A stretch of DNA of 64,000 bases from Kangiella aquimarina DSM 16071 (lineage in GTDB: Bacteria; Pseudomonadota; Gammaproteobacteria; Enterobacterales; Kangiellaceae): assembly GCF_000374105.1 (NCBI RefSeq), contig NZ_KB893650.1, positions 1,459,145 through 1,523,144 of the forward strand. The letters are read 5' to 3'. Below, piece after piece: positions 24,799-35,472 of this stretch. The notes beneath the pieces are model-generated. The model ran no database searches. It was given only the letters and a program-made list of their open reading frames with translations, and was not told where the DNA came from. Within the stretch, counting starts at the first letter, position 1. Every line of letters begins with the position of its first letter. A program made the translations under genes and the position numbers.

Positions 24799-26484
24799 TT
24801 AAGAATTTTGTTCATTGAGCATGGGAAGATCGAGACCTTGCTCTTTGGCGCATTGTTTAGCGATGTCATAGCCTGCATCAGCATGGCGCATAACACCCGT
24901 TGCTGGGTCATTGAATAGCACACGCTCAATACGCTTGTCAGCTTCTTCGGTACCGTCACAACAAATCACCACTCCAGAATGTTGCGAGAAGCCCATGCCA
25001 ACGCCGCCACCGTGGTGCAATGAAACCCAGGTCGCACCACCAGCAACATTTAGCATCGCATTTAATAGTGGCCAATCGGATACCGCATCCGAGCCATCCA
25101 TCATACCTTCGGTTTCGCGGTTGGGGCTGGCAACAGATCCAGAATCCAGGTGGTCACGTCCAATAACAACTGGTGCTTTCAGCTCACCGTTACGAACCAT
25201 CTCATTGAAAGCCAGACCAAGCTTATGACGCAGACCAAGTCCAACCCAGCAAATTCGCGCAGGCAAACCTTGGAATTGAATACGTTCACGCGCCATATCC
25301 AGCCAGTTATGAAGGTGCGGATCGTCTGCGATGATTTCTTTGACCTTCTGATCGGTTTTGTAAATATCTTCTGGGTCACCGGAAAGAGCAGCCCAGCGGA
25401 ATGGACCGACGCCACGGCAGAAAAGAGGGCGGATGTAGGCTGGCACAAACCCAGGAAAATCAAAAGCGTTGTTAACGCCTTCTTCAAGCGCCATTTGACG
25501 GATATTGTTACCGTAATCAACCGTTGGGATACCTTGATGGTAAAAGTCCAGCATCGCTTGGACTTGAACAGCCATTGATTTCTTCGCTTCTTTACTCACA
25601 AGTTCAGGATTAGCTTGCGCTTCTTTGCGCCACTGTTCAACCGTCCAGCCAATGGGAAGATAGCCGTTGACAGGATCATGAGCAGAAGTCTGGTCTGTCA
25701 CCAGATCAGGCTTAATACCACGCTTGTAGAGTTCAGGGAAAACTTCAGCAGCATTACCAAGTAGGCCAATCGAAATAGCCTGCCCCTTATCAAGTGCTTC
25801 GTTAAGTTGAGCAATGGCTTCATCAACACTGGTTGCTTTTTTATCAACGTAGCCAGTGCGGATGCGGAAATCGATGCGCGTTTCATCGCACTCTACCGCT
25901 ATCATGCAGTATCCAGCCATCGTCGCAGCCAGTGGTTGCGCACCGCCCATGCCACCTAGACCACCGGTCAGGATCCACTTACCTTGGGTTTCGCCATTAA
26001 AGTGCTGACGTCCTGCTTCGACAAATGTTTCATAGGTACCTTGCACGATGCCCTGACTACCGATATAGATCCAGGAGCCTGCAGTCATCTGGCCATACAT
26101 CATCAGGCCTTTCTTATCGAGCTCATTAAAATGCTCCCAGTTAGCCCAATGAGGAACCAAGTTAGAATTAGCGATTAACACCCGAGGTGCATCGCTATGA
26201 GTCTTAAATACCCCCACTGGCTTACCAGACTGAACGAGTAGAGTTTCGTCATCGTTTAGACGTTTAAGAGTGTCTACGATCTTGTCATAGCACTCCCAAT
26301 TTCTGGCTGCTCGACCAATACCACCATAGACCACTAAGCCTTGAGGATGCTCTGCAACGTCAGGGTCAAGATTATTCATCAGCATACGAAGTGGTGCTTC
26401 GGTAAGCCATGATTTGGCATTTAGCTTAGAGCCATGTGGCGCACGAATGACGCGATCGGGATCAAAACGATTCTTGTCAGTCAT
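24799..26484 (-). CDS. hutU: Urocanate hydratase
   Basis: A 561-residue enzyme using tightly bound NAD+ to hydrate urocanate to imidazolonepropionate. Recognised from [19 protein letters not shown], the nucleotide-binding [29 protein letters not shown], and the C-terminal [20 protein letters not shown]. Normal length. It sits between hutC (25-base gap) and hutH on the same strand, so it is under direct HutC feedback by urocanate. Confidence 0.98.
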
Positions 26485-26509
26485 ATCTGTATTCCTCTTT
26501 ATCGAGTCT

Positions 26510-27241
26510 CTATAACTCGGTTAGTTGATGTTCGGTTTTAAAACGTCCGGTGATACGGAAGCGGCTGGCAGGGTGATAAAGCTGGCTGTAGCTGACCAGA
26601 ATTTCATTTGACCAGGTTGCTCGGTCAATACATAGCACAGGCTCATTTTCCTGTAGCTTTAAGGTCACCTGCATGAAAGGGTCAGCTTCGCGTGCTTCAA
26701 TCTGATGCTCTACTTCGGTCAGCGGTGCCACCTTCGACAAATAGACATTCGGAGTAATGTTTGAATAGTCCTGTTTCAAATAATCTGGCGCTGCTTTGGG
26801 GTTTACATAACGTTGCTCTATTTGTATTGGCTTATCGTTATCTTTATGCACCATGATAGAATGGTAAATATCGTCACCTTCCTCAAGCTCAAAACGATTC
26901 AATAGGTGAGAAGGGCATTGCTCCTTTTGGAGCAAGATAAGTTCATTCGAATAGTGTCCACCGCGCTCCACAACTTCTTCAGCTATATTGCGAATTTTAA
27001 GCATCGGCGAGTAAAGCTTTTTTGGAGCTACAAAGGTACCGCGACCCTGCACCCGATATAAGATGCCTTCTTCCGTAAGTTCATCCAGGGCACGACGTGC
27101 CGTCATGCGGCTGACTTTGCAGGTTTCAACCAGTTCATTCTCAGAAGGCACCCGTTTATGCTCTTTCCAGCGTTGCTGTTCGATGCCTTGTTTAATAAAC
27201 TCTTTAACGGTGATGTAAAGGCGAGTATTCTGTTCTGTCAT
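26510..27241 (-). CDS. hutC: Histidine utilization repressor (GntR family)
   Basis: A 243-residue GntR/HutC repressor. The N-terminal winged helix (about residues 10-75: [27 protein letters not shown], then [16 protein letters not shown]) is followed by a UTRA effector domain (about 95-240) expected to bind urocanate. GGAAG six bases ahead supports the ATG at 27241; a frame opening at 27373 would run through the operator and is rejected. It is first gene of the hutC-U-H unit, with a perfect palindrome about 100 bases upstream, so autoregulation is likely. Confidence 0.94.
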
Positions 27242-27336
27242 TAATGCTTCCAATACACTTTCAGTGTCTGTAATTCCTGGCAAATATTGGGCAATAGTAT
27301 TTGCCGTTTGACTAATTTTATGGGTCTTGTATGCTA

Positions 27337-27352
27337 GGTTGTATATACAACC
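27337..27352. promoter_or_regulatory. HutC operator between hutC and hutG
   Basis: GGTTGTATATACAACC is a 16-bp perfect palindrome built on TGTATATACA, the core known for HutC sites in Pseudomonas and relatives. Extra half sites flank it (TTGTAT at 27328, ATACAA at 27358). Placed to control both divergent units. Confidence 0.8.
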
Positions 27353-27426
27353 AAAAATACAACTCAAAAGCAACTCCTTAACATCATAAATTTATATCGT
27401 GAATCAGTAGAGAAATATCCATTCTT

Positions 27427-28635
27427 ATGAATATCAATCAGTTAATTGAACAATTTGAAGCCCAGTCTATTGCTGGTGGCGACTTTAATCATAGAAATCA
27501 TCTTCGCGTAGCCTGGCACTACATCAATCACTACTCGGTTTCGAGTGCTCGTGAGCGCGTTCATCAGGGGCTGATTAAGCTGACCAAGGTTTTAGGTGCG
27601 GAAGAAAAGTACCATCGAACCATGACCGATTTTTTTATCGACTATCTGCTGCAGGTAAAATGGTATTTAAACACTGACTCCTGGGAGCAGGTAGAAGAGC
27701 GTTGTGGGTATTTATTGAATGATGCCAAGTCGTTAATAGGTATCTATTATTCAGAGTCGTTACTGGGCTCAGATCATGCACGGAAAGAATATATAGAGCC
27801 GGATCGGTTAGTGCTTGACCGAGCTACACTTATGCTACAACCCGAAGACTACCCTGTGTTTGATATGCAACTTCATGATTCACCGATTATTGTTTCAATG
27901 CCACATCATGGACAGTTCATTCCGCACGATATTGTTAAACAGATGACTGCAGCCGCAAATGACAGCGCTGATACCGACTGGTATCTAACCGATTTATATG
28001 AGTTTTTAGATGAAGTTGGCGTTACACGAATCAATGCTAACTATTCGCGCTATACGATAGATCTCAATCGGGATAAATCCGGCGAGGTTCTCTATGCGGG
28101 TGCGGACAATACTGAGTTATGCCCAACCAGTAACTTTGATCGTGAGCCTCTATACGCAGAAGACAACTTGCCAGATAGCGAAGAAATTAGTCGCAGAGTT
28201 GCTCATTATTGGCAACCCTATCATGACCAACTACAGAAGCTCATTGCTCGTGCAAAAGAGCAATTTGGCTATTGCCTATTATTTGAAGCGCATACTATTC
28301 AGTCGCATGTGCCTCGTTTTTTCGAGGGCCGTTTACCGGACTTTAATTTCGGCACTAATAACGGTGCAACAGTCAGTTCGGAAATTGCTGCATTACTGGA
28401 AGAATTTGATACCAGAGAGTTTAGTAAAATCATTAATGGTCGTTTCAAGGGTGGCTATATTACTCGACATTATGCTGATCCGGAGAGTCAGGTTTATTGT
28501 TTGCAACTGGAATTGTCACAGATTACTTATCTTGATGAGCAATTACGATTGTTTGATAAAACAAAAGCTCAACAGGTCCAAAAGCCTATCAAGGATTTGT
28601 TCCAAAAGTTAGCCGAACTTTTGCATAAGAAATAA
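27427..28635 (+). CDS. hutG: N-formylglutamate deformylase with extra N-terminal domain
   Basis: A 402-residue protein. The C-terminal 260 or so residues are HutG: SPIIVSMPHHGQFIP (about 152-166), DTDWYLTDLYEFLDEVGV, NYSRYTIDLNRD, and FEAHTIQSHVPRFFEGRLPD. It hydrolyses N-formylglutamate to glutamate and formate, the last step after HutF. Residues 1-115 are additional: GDFNHRNHLRVAWHYINH and EEKYHRTMTDFFIDYLL look like a small helical domain I recall as stand-alone uncharacterised proteins. Ordinary HutG is about 265 residues and lacks this part. It is divergent from hutC, with the operator 75 bases upstream. Confidence 0.88.
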   Translation: MNINQLIEQFEAQSIAGGDFNHRNHLRVAWHYINHYSVSSARERVHQGLIKLTKVLGAEEKYHRTMTDFFIDYLLQVKWYLNTDSWEQVEERCGYLLNDAKSLIGIYYSESLLGSDHARKEYIEPDRLVLDRATLMLQPEDYPVFDMQLHDSPIIVSMPHHGQFIPHDIVKQMTAAANDSADTDWYLTDLYEFLDEVGVTRINANYSRYTIDLNRDKSGEVLYAGADNTELCPTSNFDREPLYAEDNLPDSEEISRRVAHYWQPYHDQLQKLIARAKEQFGYCLLFEAHTIQSHVPRFFEGRLPDFNFGTNNGATVSSEIAALLEEFDTREFSKIINGRFKGGYITRHYADPESQVYCLQLELSQITYLDEQLRLFDKTKAQQVQKPIKDLFQKLAELLHKK

Positions 28636-28754
28636 TAATCAATGGAGTTCGATTCATTAAAAGATATACAGCAAAAATGTGTCTAAATTCATGTCTTGTT
28701 CACCCTAAATTGGTATGCTAAATGCGTGTTTAATCAAACGTAAAAGGTGACGAA

Positions 28755-29180
28755 ATGCGTAAGATTCTATTAACAGTTGTTTTAGCTTTATTTGCTATGC
28801 CTTTGTTTGCAAAAGATGTTGTTGTAAACAGTAATGACGCAATGAAATTCGACGTTAGCGAAATTAAAGTAAAGGCTGGTGAAGAAATAAAATTAACCTT
28901 GAATCACACTGGTAAATTGGCTAAAGACGTCATGGGCCATAACTTTGTGGTATTGGCACAGGGCACTGATGTTCAAGCCTTTGCTAATGCTGCTATTCAG
29001 GCAAAAGCCAATGATTACATTCCTGAAGGTAATGACAGTGTATTAGCTCACACCAAAGTCATTGGCGGTGGCGAAAGTGACACCATTACTTTTACATTGA
29101 AAGAAAAGGGTACGTATGAGTTTATCTGCAGTTTCCCTGGTCACTCTTTCATGATGAAAGGTGTCATCATTGTAGAATAA
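28755..29180 (+). CDS. azu: Azurin-like blue copper protein
   Basis: A 141-residue periplasmic electron carrier. Signal peptide about 1-19 (LFALPLFA-type end, cleavage before KDVV). Type 1 copper ligands are at H62 (GHNFVV), C125 (FICSFPGH), H130 and M134, in the azurin spacing. Unusually, the two cysteines that form the disulfide in classical azurin are absent; C125 is the only cysteine in the mature protein. GGTG precedes the ATG. It lies between hutG and hutI but has its own terminator; a link to histidine breakdown is not evident. Confidence 0.93.
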   Translation: MRKILLTVVLALFAMPLFAKDVVVNSNDAMKFDVSEIKVKAGEEIKLTLNHTGKLAKDVMGHNFVVLAQGTDVQAFANAAIQAKANDYIPEGNDSVLAHTKVIGGGESDTITFTLKEKGTYEFICSFPGHSFMMKGVIIVE

Positions 29181-29217
29181 ATCGTTGAGTAAGCGTCTTA
29201 CTTAACACTCTCAATAG

Positions 29218-29248
29218 AAAAGAGCGTTCATCTGAACGCTCTTTTTTT
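29218..29248. terminator. Terminator after azurin, shared with hutI
   Basis: AAAGAGCGTTCA / TGAACGCTCTTT 12-bp stem with a two-base loop and T runs on both strands. Confidence 0.9.
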
Positions 29249-29271
29249 GCCTGGGCTAAGGATAATGGGTC

Positions 29272-30501
29272 TTAACCTTTGAATGTTCGAGTCCAATTGC
29301 TTCCGCCAAGCTGGTAACTTAGTTGGTTAGGATGATCGATATCCCATAAAACCATATCTGCTTTTTTTCCAACCTCTAGGGTTCCTATTTCCTTACTTAA
29401 GCCGAGTGCTTTAGCGGCATTGATGGTCACTCCCTGTAATGATTCTAACGGAGTCATTCGGAATAGAGTGCAGGCCATATTCAACATTAGCAATAAGGAT
29501 TCGGCGGGTGATGTTCCTGGATTACTGTCAGTGGCAATTGCCATCGGAACCTGTTTGTCCCGTAGTGCCTGGATGGGCGGTAATTTAGTTTCTCTCAGAA
29601 AGTAAAAAGCGCCGGGTAACAGCACCGCAACTGTGCCACTTTTGGCCATTTTCTCGATGGATTCTTGCGATAAATACTCAAGATGATCCGCAGACAGCGC
29701 ATCAAAGTCTGCTGCAAGGCCAGCACCTGACTGATCGGATAATTGTTCCGCATGGAGTTTGACCGGAAGTCCAAGCTGTTTCGCGGTTTCGAAGACTTTT
29801 TGGGTTTGCTGATAGCTGAATCCTATGTTTTCACAAAATGCATCCACTGCATCAGCCAGCTCAAGTTCCGCGATGGTTGGTAGCATTTCGTTGCACACTA
29901 AATCGATATAATCATCAGCGCGGTCTTTGTATTCTGGAGGGAGTGCGTGCGCACCGAGAAATGTAGTGGAAACTCTTACCGGAAATTCTTTGCCAAGTCT
30001 TCTGGCAACTTTCAGCATTTTGATTTCAGTTTCGGTATCCAGTCCGTAGCCTGATTTAATTTCAATGGTGGTGAGCCCCTCTTTAAGTAAAGACTTCAAA
30101 CGCTTTGATGCAGTTTCAAACAACTGCTGTTCAGTTGCGGCGCGTGTTGCCCTTACTGAAGAGAGAATGCCTCCACCTGCTTTTGCAATTTCTTCGTAAC
30201 TGGCACCGTTTAGACGCATTTCAAACTCATTCGCTCGATTGCCGCCATAAACAAGGTGAGTATGACAATCAATCAAACCTGGAGTTAACCATTGATTATG
30301 GGCATTAATGACAGTCTCTGCGTTGCTCTCTAGTTCATTGGCGGCGTTCAGTTGCTCTTGAGTGCCTATAAATTCTATAACCCCTGATTTAACACCTAAA
30401 CAGGCATTTTCAATGATGCCATAATCGCCATGAGTTGCCATGCTGGCAATATTCACATTATGAATAAGGTAATCAAAGGGTTTAGTTTCTGGTTGGCTCA
30501 T
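29272..30501 (-). CDS. hutI: Imidazolonepropionase
   Basis: A 409-residue amidohydrolase-fold enzyme that opens imidazolonepropionate to formiminoglutamate. Metal- and substrate-site blocks: [43 protein letters not shown], and [15 protein letters not shown]. Start [15 protein letters not shown] at 30501. It is transcribed divergently from hutF with 48 bases between the starts, so the two may share control sequences. Confidence 0.97.
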
Positions 30502-30549
30502 ATTATGATCCCGTTTCTTACAAAGATTAACAGACAGGTTGACCCATCA

Positions 30550-31959
30550 ATGACTTCTAATACTGAAACACATATTTTCGCCAAGCAGGTTTTAACAGAC
30601 TCCGGCTGGGCTAATGATGTTCTGATAAGGGTCGATTGTAATGGCGTTATCCTAGAATTGAAACCAGACACGCAGCTTGAGGCTGATTTTTCTGGCATAC
30701 GTCTGCAAGGAGCGATCATTCCAGGTTTGCCGAATAGCCATTCTCATGCTTTTCAGTGGGCAATGGCTGGTTTAGGTGAAAAAAGCGGCAAGGGTGGCGA
30801 TAGCTTCTGGACCTGGCGTCAGGCAATGTATGGTTTCGTTGATGCGATTCAGCCTGAAGATCTGCAAGCAATAGCATCGGCGCTTTACATGCAAATGTTA
30901 AAAGCCGGTTATACTTCTGTCGGTGAGTTCCATTACTTGCACCATGATATCAGTGGCAACTTGTATGCAAACCCTGCTGAGATGTCCCAACGTATTTTTG
31001 AGTCTGCAATAGAATCCGGTATAAATTTGACCTTATTGCCAGTATTTTATCGCTACAGTGGTTTTGGTGAGCAGGCGCCTAATTCGGGTCAAAAGCGTTT
31101 TCTTCATGACCAGGACGCATATGCCAACTTACTTGATAAAGTTTCAGAGCTTTCTGAGCAATATCAGCAGTCATACGGTATAGCTCCCCACTCGTTGCGA
31201 GCAGTTAATGGAAAGGATCTAGAGTTCGCCATTAATCATTTGAACAGTCTTAATAACCAGGCACCGATTCATATTCATATTGCGGAGCAGATGAAAGAAG
31301 TTAATGACTGTTTGGAGTTTCATGGTAAGCGCCCAGTAGAGTGGCTGACCGAACAACAGGATGTTAATGAGCGTTGGTGTCTTGTGCATGCCACCCATAT
31401 GAATGCAGAGGAAGTTAAGCGGGTTGCTGAGTCAGAAGCTGTGGTCGCTATTTGTACAACAACTGAAGCAAATCTGGGTGATGGCTTTTTCCCAATGCTT
31501 GATTATAAACATCAGCAGGGGCGATGGTCGATAGGGAGTGATAGTCATATATCTGTTGATGCCGTAGAAGAGTTACGCTGGCTAGAATATCAGCAAAGAT
31601 TATCTCAGCAGTCAAGAACGGTATTAGTCGAGAAAGAATTTAGCTCAAATGGTTTATGGTTGTGGCAGCAGGCTGCACGTTCAGGGGCACAAACTTTAGG
31701 GCAAAAGACAGGAGCGATTACAGTTGGTTGTCAGGCTGATTTCATTGAGCTGAATACGGACAGTTTTTCATTAATGGGTAAAGGAAGCGATCAACTGATG
31801 GATGCATTTATTTTTAATCATCAATTTAGTAATGATGCAATTCGTTCAGTGTGGGCAAAAGGGAAGTGCCAAGTCGAAAATGGCATTCATCGAAATGAAG
31901 AAGAAATAAGAAAGGCTTACAGTAAAACTATTAATCGCCTGCGTCAGTGCATAAATTGA
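30550..31959 (+). CDS. hutF: Formimidoylglutamate deiminase
   Basis: A 469-residue amidohydrolase that converts formiminoglutamate to N-formylglutamate plus ammonia; with HutG this is the five-step Hut route. Recognised from IFAKQVLTDSGWANDVLI at the start, PGLPNSHSHAFQWAMAGLGE (metal histidines), HIHIAEQMKEV, LVHATHM and IGSDSHISVDAVEELRWLEY. The ATG at 30550 fits the family's N terminus; ATG at 30505 is possible, and the ribosome-binding site is weak in both cases. Its 3' end overlaps the convergent sensor gene by 29 bases. Confidence 0.95.
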   Translation: MTSNTETHIFAKQVLTDSGWANDVLIRVDCNGVILELKPDTQLEADFSGIRLQGAIIPGLPNSHSHAFQWAMAGLGEKSGKGGDSFWTWRQAMYGFVDAIQPEDLQAIASALYMQMLKAGYTSVGEFHYLHHDISGNLYANPAEMSQRIFESAIESGINLTLLPVFYRYSGFGEQAPNSGQKRFLHDQDAYANLLDKVSELSEQYQQSYGIAPHSLRAVNGKDLEFAINHLNSLNNQAPIHIHIAEQMKEVNDCLEFHGKRPVEWLTEQQDVNERWCLVHATHMNAEEVKRVAESEAVVAICTTTEANLGDGFFPMLDYKHQQGRWSIGSDSHISVDAVEELRWLEYQQRLSQQSRTVLVEKEFSSNGLWLWQQAARSGAQTLGQKTGAITVGCQADFIELNTDSFSLMGKGSDQLMDAFIFNHQFSNDAIRSVWAKGKCQVENGIHRNEEEIRKAYSKTINRLRQCIN

Positions 31960-33667
31960 TTAACTTTGTTTTAAGCTGGTGTATATCGATCGGCTTAGGA
32001 AGATAGTGAGCGTTTAGGGATTTAAATAACTCTGTTTCCTTGACGCTTGAATCACTGCTGATTACTAAAATACTGGTTTTCTCCATTTGGTCATTAAGTT
32101 CACTGGCAAAGTTTGTAAAAAAGAAAGGATCAGGATCATGGAAAAATTCTGAGTTGACCATGATGATATCGAACTTTTCGTGGCGAATTTTTTGTAGAAC
32201 TACTTGTTTTGCCGATGCTTTCTCTGTATTAACACCCAGCTTTTCGAGATAGCCCATCAGTACCATCTTATCAATAGGATCTGAGTCAAATATCAGGGCA
32301 TTAATATCAGTTTCAATTGGCGTTACACTCTCTGTCCAGACTTCAGGTTCATCCGTCGCTAATGTTGCAACAGGAATTTCAATTCTGACTTCTTTTTCAA
32401 AGTAAAAATACTCGCCCCCAAACTTTCGCAATAAGTGTTTGGCTGCAATTAAGTGAACATTGTTGCTGTAACAGGTAATCGGTGACTCATGAGAAAAGTG
32501 GAACAAGCTTTGAGTATTTACACCTTCAATAAAGTAATCAGCATCCGATTCGATCGAAATTCTTAGAATAGTGTTATCTTTTATTGCTTGCCTTTGATCA
32601 AAAGAAATACTGAGCTGATGCCCAGCGCAGACCTTTATTAATTGCTCAACCAGTAATAATAAAAAGCGTTTAAAATTATCTCTATCAATTATTAGCTGAC
32701 GATTAATACGGTCACCACTATAGGTATCATAAATCGTCACTTGTTGGCTTTTTGCCAGGCCAGAGAGCTCGGTTATTACCTGTTTTAATAAATCTCTTGA
32801 CCATATAGAACTCTTGCGATCGCCAATATGCTGTGTGATGGACTGATAGAATAGCTGGATAGTTTCATCATCATGTTCTATAGGGTTTTCAAGCAAGAAG
32901 CCAAGGAATTCCTGTAATTCAGTATTTGCATCGCGTCTGGCCTGAGCCACTTCCGTTTTAAGCAATGTTAGTTGATGTTCTAAGTTTTTATTCTGTAAAA
33001 ATATATCGATAATCGCTTTAATTAAAGCCTGGGCTTCCTGTGTTTTAGTGTTATAGAGAATATTTCTTGGTAATACCGAACGGTTTAGGGACTCGGTCAT
33101 TTTTTTCATAATGCGACTGGTGTAGCTGAGGCGGTAATACATATATGCCCAAAGCATTGTTTGATAAGTTTGTATTTCCTGAGAGGTAGGACTATACGCC
33201 AGAGGGGTCATGCTTAGGGTTACTTCGCCTAGTCGCCTTTCCAGCTTGACGCTTTGCAATATTTCTTCATTTAAAAGTAAAGAATCACTTAAAGAGCTAC
33301 TTGGGCTTTGATCTATCGGCTGGGTAAAATTAATTAGCTCAACATCTTCAGGTATTGATAACAGGTCTCGATTATCCAACTGTGCCATGACATTTGATTG
33401 ATTGTCATAGACAGTAATCATGGCAAGCCCTTGGTTATTTCTTAGAGCTTCCAATGAGTTCTTTAGATCTACTTTGTTACCAAAAGAGAGTCCATATTCA
33501 AGTTCAATTGTCAGGTTTGCAAGAATGGACTGGCTGAGGTTTTTTTGCTGATAATAATGTTGTTGTTGGCTTGCTTTGCTCAATAAGTAATTTGCAACAA
33601 ACAGAAGCGCTATTACGGCAAGAATGAATGCCAGGTTGTATTGATTAACATACTTTGCGCGCTTCAC
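31931..33667 (-). CDS. Degenerate membrane hybrid sensor kinase
   Basis: A 578-residue protein shaped like a hybrid sensor kinase but lacking its catalytic residues. One transmembrane helix (11-29), a sensor-like region with beta strands (about 30-160), a coiled coil (225-255), a HisKA-like helix where the usual H-E-x-x-x-P reads LLENPIE (no phospho-histidine), a HATPase-like domain (about 320-432) whose N-box asparagine and GTGLGL loop are not visible, and a C-terminal receiver-like domain (455-572) with D461, D463 and K558 but N505 where the phospho-accepting aspartate belongs. A second transmembrane helix near 168-182 is weak. GTG start overlaps the upstream stop by 4 bases. Probably signals by conformation, not phosphotransfer (inference). 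Confidence 0.7.
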   Translation of the reverse strand: MKRAKYVNQYNLAFILAVIALLFVANYLLSKASQQQHYYQQKNLSQSILANLTIELEYGLSFGNKVDLKNSLEALRNNQGLAMITVYDNQSNVMAQLDNRDLLSIPEDVELINFTQPIDQSPSSSLSDSLLLNEEILQSVKLERRLGEVTLSMTPLAYSPTSQEIQTYQTMLWAYMYYRLSYTSRIMKKMTESLNRSVLPRNILYNTKTQEAQALIKAIIDIFLQNKNLEHQLTLLKTEVAQARRDANTELQEFLGFLLENPIEHDDETIQLFYQSITQHIGDRKSSIWSRDLLKQVITELSGLAKSQQVTIYDTYSGDRINRQLIIDRDNFKRFLLLLVEQLIKVCAGHQLSISFDQRQAIKDNTILRISIESDADYFIEGVNTQSLFHFSHESPITCYSNNVHLIAAKHLLRKFGGEYFYFEKEVRIEIPVATLATDEPEVWTESVTPIETDINALIFDSDPIDKMVLMGYLEKLGVNTEKASAKQVVLQKIRHEKFDIIMVNSEFFHDPDPFFFTNFASELNDQMEKTSILVISSDSSVKETELFKSLNAHYLPKPIDIHQLKTKLINLCTDAGD

Positions 33668-34677
33668 AATTGATCCTTCTCTGAGGGTATCTGTTCTAAG
33701 TTGTTTTCTTCATACGCTGAAAGGTTCAGCTTATTCAACTCAGATTGTAACGTCTCTTTAGAGACCATATCTAGCCCCAGGGAGCGAGCAACTTCCGAGT
33801 TATATTTAATATCATAATAAGCGCTATGTCTGATGAAGTTTTTGAATCCGTGAGTAAGCATTTTATTTGCGGATTCTCTCAAATCGTCTATCAACATTTC
33901 AGGAGTGGTAAAAGTGGTTGCAACTGCACCAGCATTTACAAGTCCTACAGAATAACCAATGATAACTTTTCGCTGGCGATAGCTGCTCAGTAAAACCCTT
34001 GGCAAAGTCTGGCTGTTATAAATGACAGGATCAGGCTGAGCTATTATAAAGTCTGAGTTTTGAGAGAGTGCAGGGAATTGCCTGGCTACCTCAGAGGCCT
34101 GTTTGATTTGGATCGTTTGCAAGTTCAAGCCTGTTGCATTTATTGCAGATTCATAACCCTCCAGGAAATAAGGGGAGTCCATCGAATACATGACACCAAC
34201 AGATTTTGACAATGGCAATAACAGTTTACCGAGTACAATTTGTCGTTGTGGATCTGGGTCATAGAAAATGGCGCTTATTGAAGAGGGTGGGGGAATTTGA
34301 CTCACCAGCTCTTTCCATTCCTGAGAAGTGATAAGAGCTGCCAGTACAGGGCCTTGGTATTCTGATTTAAGCAGTTCTTCGAGTGGTGAGTAACCTAAGC
34401 TTATGATGAGCTCGGATTGAGGCTTGAGAATTTTCCAGTCTTCCAATGAAATATTAACAATTCGATAGTCGTCAGCAAGAGAAGATAAAGAGAGGCTTTT
34501 GGCGATAGTTGAGTAATTACTGGAGAAGTGTTGCGCAATGATAGTAATTTGTTTTTGTGGCGGTGAATTTTCACCTTGCTCTTGAGCTGTATAGGCAAAA
34601 GGAAATCCTCCCGCCAATAGAAATAACGCTAAAAGCAGTTTGTTATATGTTTTAAAAGCCCTAAGAAAGCAGTCCAT
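33664..34677 (-). CDS. Periplasmic substrate-binding-like protein
   Basis: A 337-residue protein with an N-terminal hydrophobic segment (about 12-30, LLLALFLLAGGFPFAYTA) that is probably a signal peptide. The rest resembles the ABC_sub_bind family (PF04392 type): ITIIAQHFSSNYSTIAKSL, SLGYSPLEELLKSEYQGPVLAALI, ISAIFYDPDPQRQIVLGKLLLP, VGVMYS, and the late VNAGAVATTFTTPEMLIDDL. No ABC permease or ATPase is adjacent. It overlaps the degenerate sensor gene by 4 bases (GTGA), indicating translational coupling; it likely senses a periplasmic ligand for that protein. The ligand is unknown. Confidence 0.72.
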   Translation of the reverse strand: MDCFLRAFKTYNKLLLALFLLAGGFPFAYTAQEQGENSPPQKQITIIAQHFSSNYSTIAKSLSLSSLADDYRIVNISLEDWKILKPQSELIISLGYSPLEELLKSEYQGPVLAALITSQEWKELVSQIPPPSSISAIFYDPDPQRQIVLGKLLLPLSKSVGVMYSMDSPYFLEGYESAINATGLNLQTIQIKQASEVARQFPALSQNSDFIIAQPDPVIYNSQTLPRVLLSSYRQRKVIIGYSVGLVNAGAVATTFTTPEMLIDDLRESANKMLTHGFKNFIRHSAYYDIKYNSEVARSLGLDMVSKETLQSELNKLNLSAYEENNLEQIPSEKDQL

Positions 34678-34806: not shown

Positions 34807-35472
34807 CTAACACCATTTTATAGGTGTTTGGTCATTTTCTACAAGTATTTGATTTGTTTTAGAAAAATGCTTACAGCCAAAAAAACCGCGGTGTGCCGAA
34901 AGTGGCGACGGATGCGGTGCGGTTAAGATAGTGTGTTTAGGGTTTTTTATCAAGCTGGATTTGGCCTGTGCCTGTGAACCCCATAGCAGGAATATAATTG
35001 GTTGATCTGCCCTGTTCAGTGCCTGTATGACTTCATCCGTGAATATTTCCCAACCACGTCCTTTATGTGAGTTTGGCTTGGCTGCTTCTACGGTTAAAAC
35101 AGTATTCAGAAGAAGTACACCCTGTTTGGCCCAACCAGATAAGTCGCCATTTATAGGTTGCGTACAACCGATATCACTGACCAGCTCTTTATAAATGTTT
35201 CGGAGTGAAGGAGGCAGCGGCTGTTCTGGATTAACGGAAAAGCAAAGTCCGTTTGCCTGATTAGGACCGTGATATGGATCCTGACCTAAGATAACTACTT
35301 TTACCTGTGCGAACTCGGTCAAGCTGAGTGCTGCGAAGACTTGTTCCTTTGGGGGATAAATGGTTTTTCCGGACTCTCTTTCGGATTCTATAAATGACAA
35401 TAACTCTTTGAAATAAGTTTGTTTTTTTACTGGCTCCAGAACTTCAGCCCAGCTGCTAATTGGCTCAGACAT
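34807..35472 (-). CDS. ung: Uracil-DNA glycosylase
   Basis: A 221-residue family 1 UDG that removes uracil from DNA. Catalytic water-activating aspartate at D65 in [18 protein letters not shown]; the leucine-loop and histidine motif is [18 protein letters not shown] near residue 187. [22 protein letters not shown] is the central family block. Monocistronic by appearance. Confidence 0.97.

Follow-up and report, generated by a model that had tools for sequence, protein, structure and literature searches.

LuxP-LuxQ and TorT-TorS each join a binding protein to an active hybrid histidine kinase, and their binding proteins come from families other than PF04392. Here we analysed a PF04392 binding-protein gene and its overlapping sensor gene in a 64,000-nt stretch of Kangiella aquimarina DSM 16071 (NZ_KB893650.1, positions 1,459,145–1,523,144; this whole stretch is the window, and feature coordinates are window positions). 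The sensor aligns as a hybrid histidine kinase that has lost phosphotransfer residues in both its kinase and its receiver part, and the losses are common to this genus of marine bacteria. An initial annotation had likened the two genes to LuxP-LuxQ; this holds as an analogy only, as the Kangiella binding protein is of PF04392, the kinase residues are lost and the binding protein, unlike those of LuxP-LuxQ and TorT-TorS, is dispensable, which places the pair outside the LuxP-LuxQ kind.

Closer precedents lie in two-component proteins with altered chemistry, cited here and below from excerpts of the papers. In Pseudomonas, hybrid kinases without a histidine phosphotransfer (HPt) domain act on the BarA/GacS kinase, LadS by relay and RetS by heterodimer (PMC4866733, PMC5992135). 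The sensor is likewise an HPt-less hybrid kinase that could modulate BarA/GacS, and RetS is reported to be partly independent of its own phosphorelay residues (PMC4866733). RetS and LadS both take part in phosphoryl reactions (PMC5992135, PMC4866733); an interaction of the Kangiella protein with such a kinase is only putative. Among dead kinases with a function, the closest precedent is DivL, a conserved histidine kinase that lacks the His and is functional without kinase activity (PMC4211667). However, the N, G1, F and G2 boxes are retained in DivL (PMC4211667), whereas the Kangiella protein has lost ATP-site and receiver residues and has a shortened dimerization and histidine phosphotransfer (DHp) part.

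Pseudo-receivers offer a further comparison. HisKA domains without the His make up 0.9% and receivers without the Asp 2.0%; about 80% of pseudo-receivers have a non-acidic residue at the second position of the acidic DD pair (DD2), and pseudo-receivers may act by binding other two-component proteins (PMC12632262). The Kangiella protein fits this pattern, resembling FrzS, the central domain of ShkA and CmrT in its non-acidic DD2 and lost acceptor Asp, and adds a dead, shortened transmitter (pattern in PMC12632262). The ShkA pseudo-receiver binds cyclic di-GMP, so a pseudo-receiver can bind a ligand (PMC7010744). What sets the Kangiella pseudo-receiver apart from FrzS, ShkA and CmrT is its fusion to a dead kinase, accompanied in about half of the genomes by a binding-protein gene.

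Loss of phosphotransfer residues in the sensor

The sensor and its parts are as follows.

31931..33667, minus strand: sensor, pseudo-hybrid-kinase, 578 aa, GTG start (open reading frame (ORF), profile searches, ortholog alignment, omega)
33578..33634, minus strand: transmembrane helix 1 (TM1), residues 12–30 (hydropathy 2.49)
33173..33577, minus strand: periplasmic part, weakly similar to CHASE8/sCache_4, in which 4 of 136 residues are the same in all 19 orthologs
33150..33160, minus strand: site of a 33-bp (11-residue) deletion removing most of transmembrane helix 2 (TM2) (DNA compared with G019, hydropathy)
32873..32920, minus strand: remnant of the DHp H-box region, residues 250–265, 35–36 residues shorter than in intact relatives
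32609..32677, minus strand: degenerate N-box, residues 331–353, catalytic Asn changed to Gln (profile and alignment)
32408..32467, minus strand: former G2/ATP-lid region, residues 401–420, with invariant N402 N403, K410 H411, K415 and G417 G418
31934..32305, minus strand: pseudo-receiver, residues 455–578, with D461 at the first acidic position (DD1), S462 at DD2, N505 at the phospho-acceptor position and K558 kept
32174..32227, minus strand: alpha2 region of the pseudo-receiver, residues 481–498, basic, nearly invariant in the genus

The residues expected of an active hybrid kinase, namely the H-box His, N-box Asn, G1 Asp, G2 Gly-x-Gly, receiver DD pair and acceptor Asp, were not found in the sensor as such. 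Judged by its residues, the protein is a pseudo-histidine kinase, in that kinase homology remains, the catalytic functions seem lost and the protein is retained; its receiver, recognisable with key active-site residues gone, is a pseudo-receiver. D461, D463, N505 and K558 are present as first named. D461 indeed aligns with DD1, but Ser462 occupies DD2 and D463 falls on the Asn that follows the pair; we therefore rejected D463 as a second metal ligand, and the acidic pocket is broken too. At the H-box, the motif LLENPIE contains no His, as annotated, but the change goes beyond a substitution, because 35–36 DHp residues around the H-box are gone in 19 of 19 orthologs.

Domain profile searches of the pair placed PF04392 above its cut-off and the receiver below it (21.2 versus 30.2 bits; Pfam, maximum E-value 10), together with weak periplasmic-domain matches. 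Neither HisKA nor HATPase_c was listed for the sensor in this search, in which HMMER filters drop most weak matches, and the BarA model NF008318 was not listed for it at a maximum E-value of 10 (NCBIfam). Among the 19 Kangiella orthologs, 18 matched PF00072 at E ≤ 0.01, and HAMP was not among the matches of any at E 0.01. The ATP-binding region had been called unrecognisable; it proved recognisable by profile, with the N-box Asn changed to Gln or Glu and the G2 loop to an invariant Asn-Asn. An hhalign comparison of the 19 orthologs with six intact kinases ran end to end (probability 99.6, E-value 1.4e-23, 568 columns).

AlphaFold2 on residues 181–578, run with three close sequences, gave a mean predicted local distance difference test (pLDDT) score of 44.7 and was usable for the receiver only (block means 59–85), which showed a five-fold beta-alpha pattern. 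Because confidence was low for the DHp and catalytic, ATP-binding (CA) parts, their homology rests on the profile alignment. A Foldseek search, used for the receiver only, gave 1561 matches; the 50 listed were all receiver domains or receiver-containing proteins, including GacS D1 and PA1611 REC. A PDB sequence match to FrzS (2gkg) was non-significant (E 0.37).

Genus-wide loss and graded erosion at the same locus

We searched for the sensor in 61 genomes, 20 of them Kangiella (its own included). A near-full-length ortholog, 98–30% identical, was found in 19 of the 20, with an open reading frame in every case, and the only Kangiella genome without one is 55% complete. Kangiella metagenome-assembled genome records L031 and L032 carried the sensor at 89% and 82% identity. 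Seven further, distant genomes matched at E 3e-8 or weaker; in G020, G023, G030 and G033 the weak match was the kinase of the same locus.

Elsewhere, the same locus was reached through the binding protein, in L063 (genus g2), L064–L067 and L071 (g5, the sister genus) and L068 (g6), and it was also present in other families of the order (L069, L100–L103). The family-wide binding-protein search covered 40 genomes (g1, 20; g2, 1; g3, 7; g4, 6; g5, 5; g6, 1). Genera g3 and g4 gave weaker matches only (best E-values 1e-13 to 4e-22), and G021 and G026 gave none at 1e-12. In an order-wide search, the L069 binding protein was matched in 21 of 394 genomes at E 1e-15. Another pair of solute-binding protein and kinase was seen in G034 (L072).

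The residue alignment held 37 kinases: the 19 from Kangiella, 12 other kinases of the locus and 6 BarA proteins. The His, the N-box Asn, the G1 Asp, DD1 and DD2, the acceptor Asp and the Lys were all intact, and the receiver Thr position held Thr or Ser, in six of six kinases from L068, L069 and L100–L103; the same was true of the six BarA proteins. The sister genus was half-way eroded: its five kinases showed His once, Tyr twice, Thr once and Phe once at the His position, kept the N-box Asn in one of five and the G1 Asp in all, and had lost DD2 in all (to Asn or Ser) with acceptor Asp and Lys kept in all. The two with Tyr at the phospho-His position, as in DivL (L064 4971–6926 and L067 4308–6248), have Asp for the N-box Asn. 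In g2 (L063), a His stands in the aligned column and acceptor Asp and Lys are kept; the Asn, the G1 Asp and both DD residues are lost.

Kangiella itself was uniform. In 19 of 19 proteins the N-box Asn was lost, the G1 Asp was Ser, Asn-Asn replaced the G2 glycines, DD1 was acidic, DD2 was Ser, the acceptor Asp was Asn and the Lys (K558) was kept. The aligned H column held a residue other than His in 17 of 19, the window protein included. Counted from the conserved Phe of the H-box, the ATP domain's first Asp lay 74 residues away in all 19, 90 in g2 and 109–110 in the other 11 locus kinases and the six BarA proteins, indicating that the DHp part lost about 35 residues. Two more spacings, of 73 and 54 residues, were fixed in all 19, and the fixed spacings hold across orthologs down to about 30% identity.

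The losses proposed for the window protein thus extend throughout the clade, being shared by all 19 orthologs found in the 20 Kangiella genomes searched. Close orthologs with intact residues, the outcome that would have spoken for decay in one strain, were absent within the genus, and all the intact ones found belonged to other genera and families (L068, L069, L100–L103). We therefore rejected a recent, strain-specific decay of the catalytic residues.

On a tree of the same 37 kinases, support was 100/100 for Kangiella, 100/100 for g5, 100/99 for g5 with g6 and 91/98 for Kangiella with g2; the placement of L063 is unsure because of its very long branch. The Kangiella stem measured 2.94 changes per column. 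The His required two changes with L063 and all Kangiella scored as His-less, two with L063 scored as His, and four with L063, L015 and L016 scored as His; DD2 required two. With the intact g6 as sister to the eroded g5, this tree calls for at least two losses of the chemistry.

Strong constraint on the sensor

Between the window sensor and its nearest ortholog, 127 codon differences were synonymous and 12 non-synonymous (dN/dS 0.020). The other sensor pairs with finite dS gave 0.025 and, for L018/L019, 0.067 (three of ten pairs finite); finite pairwise ratios were 0.048–0.141 for hutF and 0.070–0.127 for the binding protein. For the sensor, the codon models gave an omega of 0.027 in a Kangiella clade of 5 sequences, 0.025 in one of 7 and 0.035 in one of 6 (L006 left out). 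It was 0.065, 0.056 and 0.068 for hutF in the same clades, 0.124 for the binding protein (5 sequences) and 0.020 for intact BarA (5 sequences from a different species set). As dS is saturated in most pairs, the omega figures are comparative values. By part, in the same clades, omega was 0.012, 0.009 and 0.040 for the DHp-like and 0.019, 0.013 and 0.011 for the CA-like region.

Across the 19 orthologs 68 residues were invariant, including 27 of 124 in the receiver, 22 of 120 in the CA-like, 11 of 95 in the DHp-like and 4 of 136 in the periplasmic part. Together, low omega and invariant residues indicate that the gene is not merely decaying. The alpha2 region (residues 481–498) had a mean net charge of +2.7 in Kangiella, compared with −1.2 in six intact receivers and +0.2 in the five g5 receivers. 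On these charges, the basic alpha2 face of the pseudo-receiver is a candidate new contact surface.

A dispensable binding protein

The binding protein precedes the sensor, with the overlap and both ORFs at the positions first annotated.

33664..34677, minus strand: PF04392 periplasmic binding protein, 337 aa, with N-terminal signal-like segment (PF04392, PDB 3lft match)
33664..33667, minus strand: GTGA stop/start overlap of the binding-protein TGA with the sensor GTG (ORF ends)

The 4-nt overlap is also present in L002, L069, L101 and L102. PF04392 passed its cut-off of 25.9 bits on the window binding protein (27.1) and fell just below it on the L068 relative (25.2). The window protein also matched PDB 3lft (E 1.4e-7), which we take to be a tryptophan-binding protein; its best NCBIfam match was the TrpX model, far below the cut-off (25.9 versus 390 bits). 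Residues such as G95, Q146, D209, N221, Y233, R234 and G250 were common to all 19 aligned binding proteins of the locus (9 from Kangiella and 10 others; L063, with an interrupted frame, and L103, with an incomplete ORF, were left out), so the protein is still conserved where it is kept.

It was found upstream of the sensor in 9 of 19 Kangiella genomes and was not adjacent in 10. Searching these 10 with the window protein at E 0.001 returned only the BarA-side protein described below in seven and nothing in three. Adjacent presence required three changes within Kangiella on the tree and, because the outgroups have the binding protein, three losses are the natural reading. The sensing pair of the initial annotation does not survive as an obligate one: the binding protein is no obligate partner, and we rejected such a pair on the 10 of 19 orthologs without it upstream. 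In g2 the binding-protein frame is interrupted (L063 4133–5092, two ORFs) and the kinase-like frame is open.

A membrane-helix deletion in the window strain

The window protein alone among the 19 orthologs lacks 11 residues of TM2, a point overlooked in the initial annotation. The 33-bp deletion sits between AATGCT repeats in comparison with G019. The best 19-residue hydropathy in the TM2 region was 0.01 in the window protein, compared with 1.73–2.79 in the other 18. The window branch was not accelerated (0.0089 versus 0.013 for G019); with no excess of changes elsewhere, the deletion is either recent or an assembly error, that is, TM2 may be truly lost in the window strain or only missing from its assembly. 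Anchored by TM1 alone, the protein would lack the usual cytoplasmic placement of its C-terminal domains, and the window copy may not transmit a periplasmic signal; a very recent loss of function in the window strain alone is possible. The choice of strain for experiments therefore matters, since this one misses most of one membrane helix.

BarA as a candidate pathway

At E 0.001, the window genome contained 21 HATPase_c matches (which may include non-kinase ATPases), 27 receiver matches and 14 HisKA matches; 25 of the receivers (the window's own being among the two below) and 13 of the HisKA matches exceeded their cut-offs. Potential partners are thus not lacking. For the partner encoded elsewhere that the initial annotation had suggested, one concrete candidate was found in a second pair of the same genome (G000:C2:434844-438716; L095 1842–5717), in which a PF04392-like binding protein lies directly upstream of an intact 947-aa BarA. 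The neighbours of this pair are presumably rlmD-like and mtaB-like genes. The BarA passes NF008318 (910.7 versus 890 bits), and its binding protein is a distant relative of that in the window (E 1.2e-6). PF04392 scored 19.7 bits on this BarA-side binding protein (below 25.9), 43.6 on that of G006 and 67.6 on that of G024.

A full-length BarA and its binding protein were each matched in 19 of 20 Kangiella genomes; the two are neighbours in 18, and G003 has them on separate contigs. The BarA matches start at residue 1–3, or at 50 in G003, and the binding-protein match of G009 contains a TAA. All 19 genomes that carry the pseudo-kinase also have a BarA; its catalytic residues were read in two of these (the window genome and G006) and in four genomes outside the genus. 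By eye, the BarA of the window genome (L095 1842–4685) has an inner receiver-like part (FDPHP / IIIGGQ) without the usual acidic and acceptor residues, resembling a pseudo-receiver.

The intact locus kinases L068 and L069 had BarA as their best NCBIfam model, from its N-terminus (431 and 460 bits), and BarA, like them, is preceded by a binding protein. However, these scores stay below the 890-bit cut-off, the locus kinases lack both an HPt and about 140 residues between ATP domain and receiver, and the Kangiella form is without the catalytic residues. Because the HPt-less locus kinases score best with BarA, and because of the RetS and LadS precedents, BarA is the first candidate and no more. 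The combination of BarA with a binding protein dedicated to it may merit separate study.

Neighbouring genes

Two neighbours were identified by eye from their translations.

30430..31959, plus strand: hutF-like gene, convergent to the sensor, 29-nt 3′ overlap
34807..35472, minus strand: ung-like gene

A convergent hutF-like ORF followed the sensor in 19 of 19 Kangiella loci (cut by the contig end in L013; by eye), and an ung-like ORF lay upstream in 12 of 19, the stretches of L007–L013 not reaching it (by eye). Of the 12 loci outside Kangiella, 11 had the hutF-like gene (all but the L101 stretch) and 10 the ung-like gene, which was not seen in L063 and would lie beyond the contig end in L103. 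The 3′ ends of the sensor and hutF-like ORFs share 29 nt in the window (31931–31959), and overlaps of 4–29 nt were counted by eye in 16 of 19 orthologs. A histidine-utilisation cluster (hutU-, hutC-, hutI- and hutF-like, 24799–31959, by eye) adjoins the sensor. As first annotated, no adjacent response-regulator or ABC-transporter gene was apparent by eye among ORFs of at least 90 aa at 26–40 kb of the window.

Discussion

We favour, with a probability of about 0.6, a genus-wide functional pseudo-hybrid-kinase that signals by contact, with BarA as its likeliest pathway; that Kangiella retains a functional protein working without phosphotransfer, taken by itself, is very probable. The initial annotation had proposed signalling without phosphotransfer by proteins that keep their fold; the lost residues, the fold kept at least in the receiver and the strong constraint agree with this, but the obligate pairing does not. 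The ancestor would have been a working BarA-like hybrid histidine kinase without HPt, at the ung-hutF locus and with its own PF04392 binding protein. The Kangiella lineage lost the H-box segment, the N-box Asn, the G-box glycines, DD2 and the phospho-acceptor Asp, after which the protein would have been re-fixed under strong purifying selection. As a presumably dimeric membrane protein, it would show an altered ATP-domain surface and the new basic alpha2 face to a partner, and periplasmic input, through the binding protein where kept and otherwise through the sensor domain alone, would alter this contact. The likeliest pathway would be the BarA phosphorelay, an assignment we make tentatively.

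Several points weigh against this reading. L015 and L016 have a His aligned with the H position, right where the 35–36-residue deletion borders it, and the DHp/CA part of the structure model has low confidence. Omega of the periplasmic part (0.021, 0.024 and 0.061) is about like that of the receiver (0.040, 0.020 and 0.039); since the codon model finds the periplasmic part constrained too, it is the invariant residues that set the domains apart. Saturation left 7 of 10 sensor pairs without a finite dS, and the finite pair L018/L019 has the higher ratio, at 0.067. With most of TM2 missing, signalling through the membrane is doubtful in the window strain. BarA as partner is a candidate only, suggested by sequence context, and its co-occurrence is by itself uninformative because the 19 of 20 Kangiella genomes with a BarA are also those with the pseudo-kinase.

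The BarA-like ancestry could also point to a titration as by RetS, in which the pseudo-kinase uses its DHp helices to form a heterodimer with BarA and keeps BarA from autophosphorylating. RetS blocks GacS through an H1–H1 heterodimer independently of its phosphorelay residues, or without fully needing them (PMC4866733), the intact locus kinases L068 and L069 score best with BarA, and BarA occurs in all 19 genomes with the pseudo-kinase. However, with 35–36 DHp residues around the H-box gone in all 19, the surface used by RetS is altered; no HAMP match was found in the 19 at E 0.01, and RetS also takes phosphoryl groups and acts as a phosphatase (PMC5992135), roles that the Kangiella protein could hardly share. 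We consider this titration unlikely. Signal flow could instead be reversed, the dead transmitter or pseudo-receiver binding, and so sensing, a phosphorylated response regulator or HPt. DivL, with Tyr for the His, reads DivK~P in this manner (PMC4211667), and two sister-genus relatives have Tyr at the His position; but Kangiella has lost the other kinase boxes that DivL keeps (PMC4211667) and no response regulator is apparent nearby by eye, which makes a DivL-like role decidedly improbable.

Plain decay, that is, a slowly dying kinase without function, would suit the long Kangiella stem (2.94 changes per column), the binding protein not adjacent in 10 of 19 and the TM2 deletion of the window strain. 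Against the open frames in 19 of 19, clade omegas of 0.025–0.035, 68 invariant residues and fixed spacings, we give it little credence. Even less credible is that phosphotransfer is still performed with unusual residues: K558, the acidic D461 and a Ser or Thr at the receiver Thr position are kept in 19 of 19 and other histidines remain, such as the invariant H411, but none of the 19 has the N-box Asn, the G1 Asp, the DD2 Asp or the acceptor Asp, and the G2 glycines are replaced.

Among the matches listed by literature searches (titles and abstract starts), none was about this protein for Kangiella histidine kinases or BarA, none described a pair of PF04392 with a histidine kinase and none a pair of BarA with a binding protein; the matches listed for pseudo-kinases contained none on Kangiella. 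Pseudo-histidine kinases and pseudo-receivers are known in kind; what is new is a doubly dead hybrid kinase, conserved genus-wide, whose relatives at that locus are in part intact and in part half-eroded. It is possible, if doubtful as a whole, that this one family holds a near-complete series from intact kinases (L068 and the outgroups) through half-eroded ones (g5, L063) to a dead, conserved receptor, with the chemistry lost at least twice and the new basic receiver face as output; the end product would be a contact-only receptor, possibly binding a ligand or nucleic acid, from which the binding protein can be dropped. Overall, a single genomic position here supplies natural intermediates, a conserved end state and intact relatives that can serve as controls, which makes it possible to test in what order phosphorelay chemistry was lost and what replaced it.

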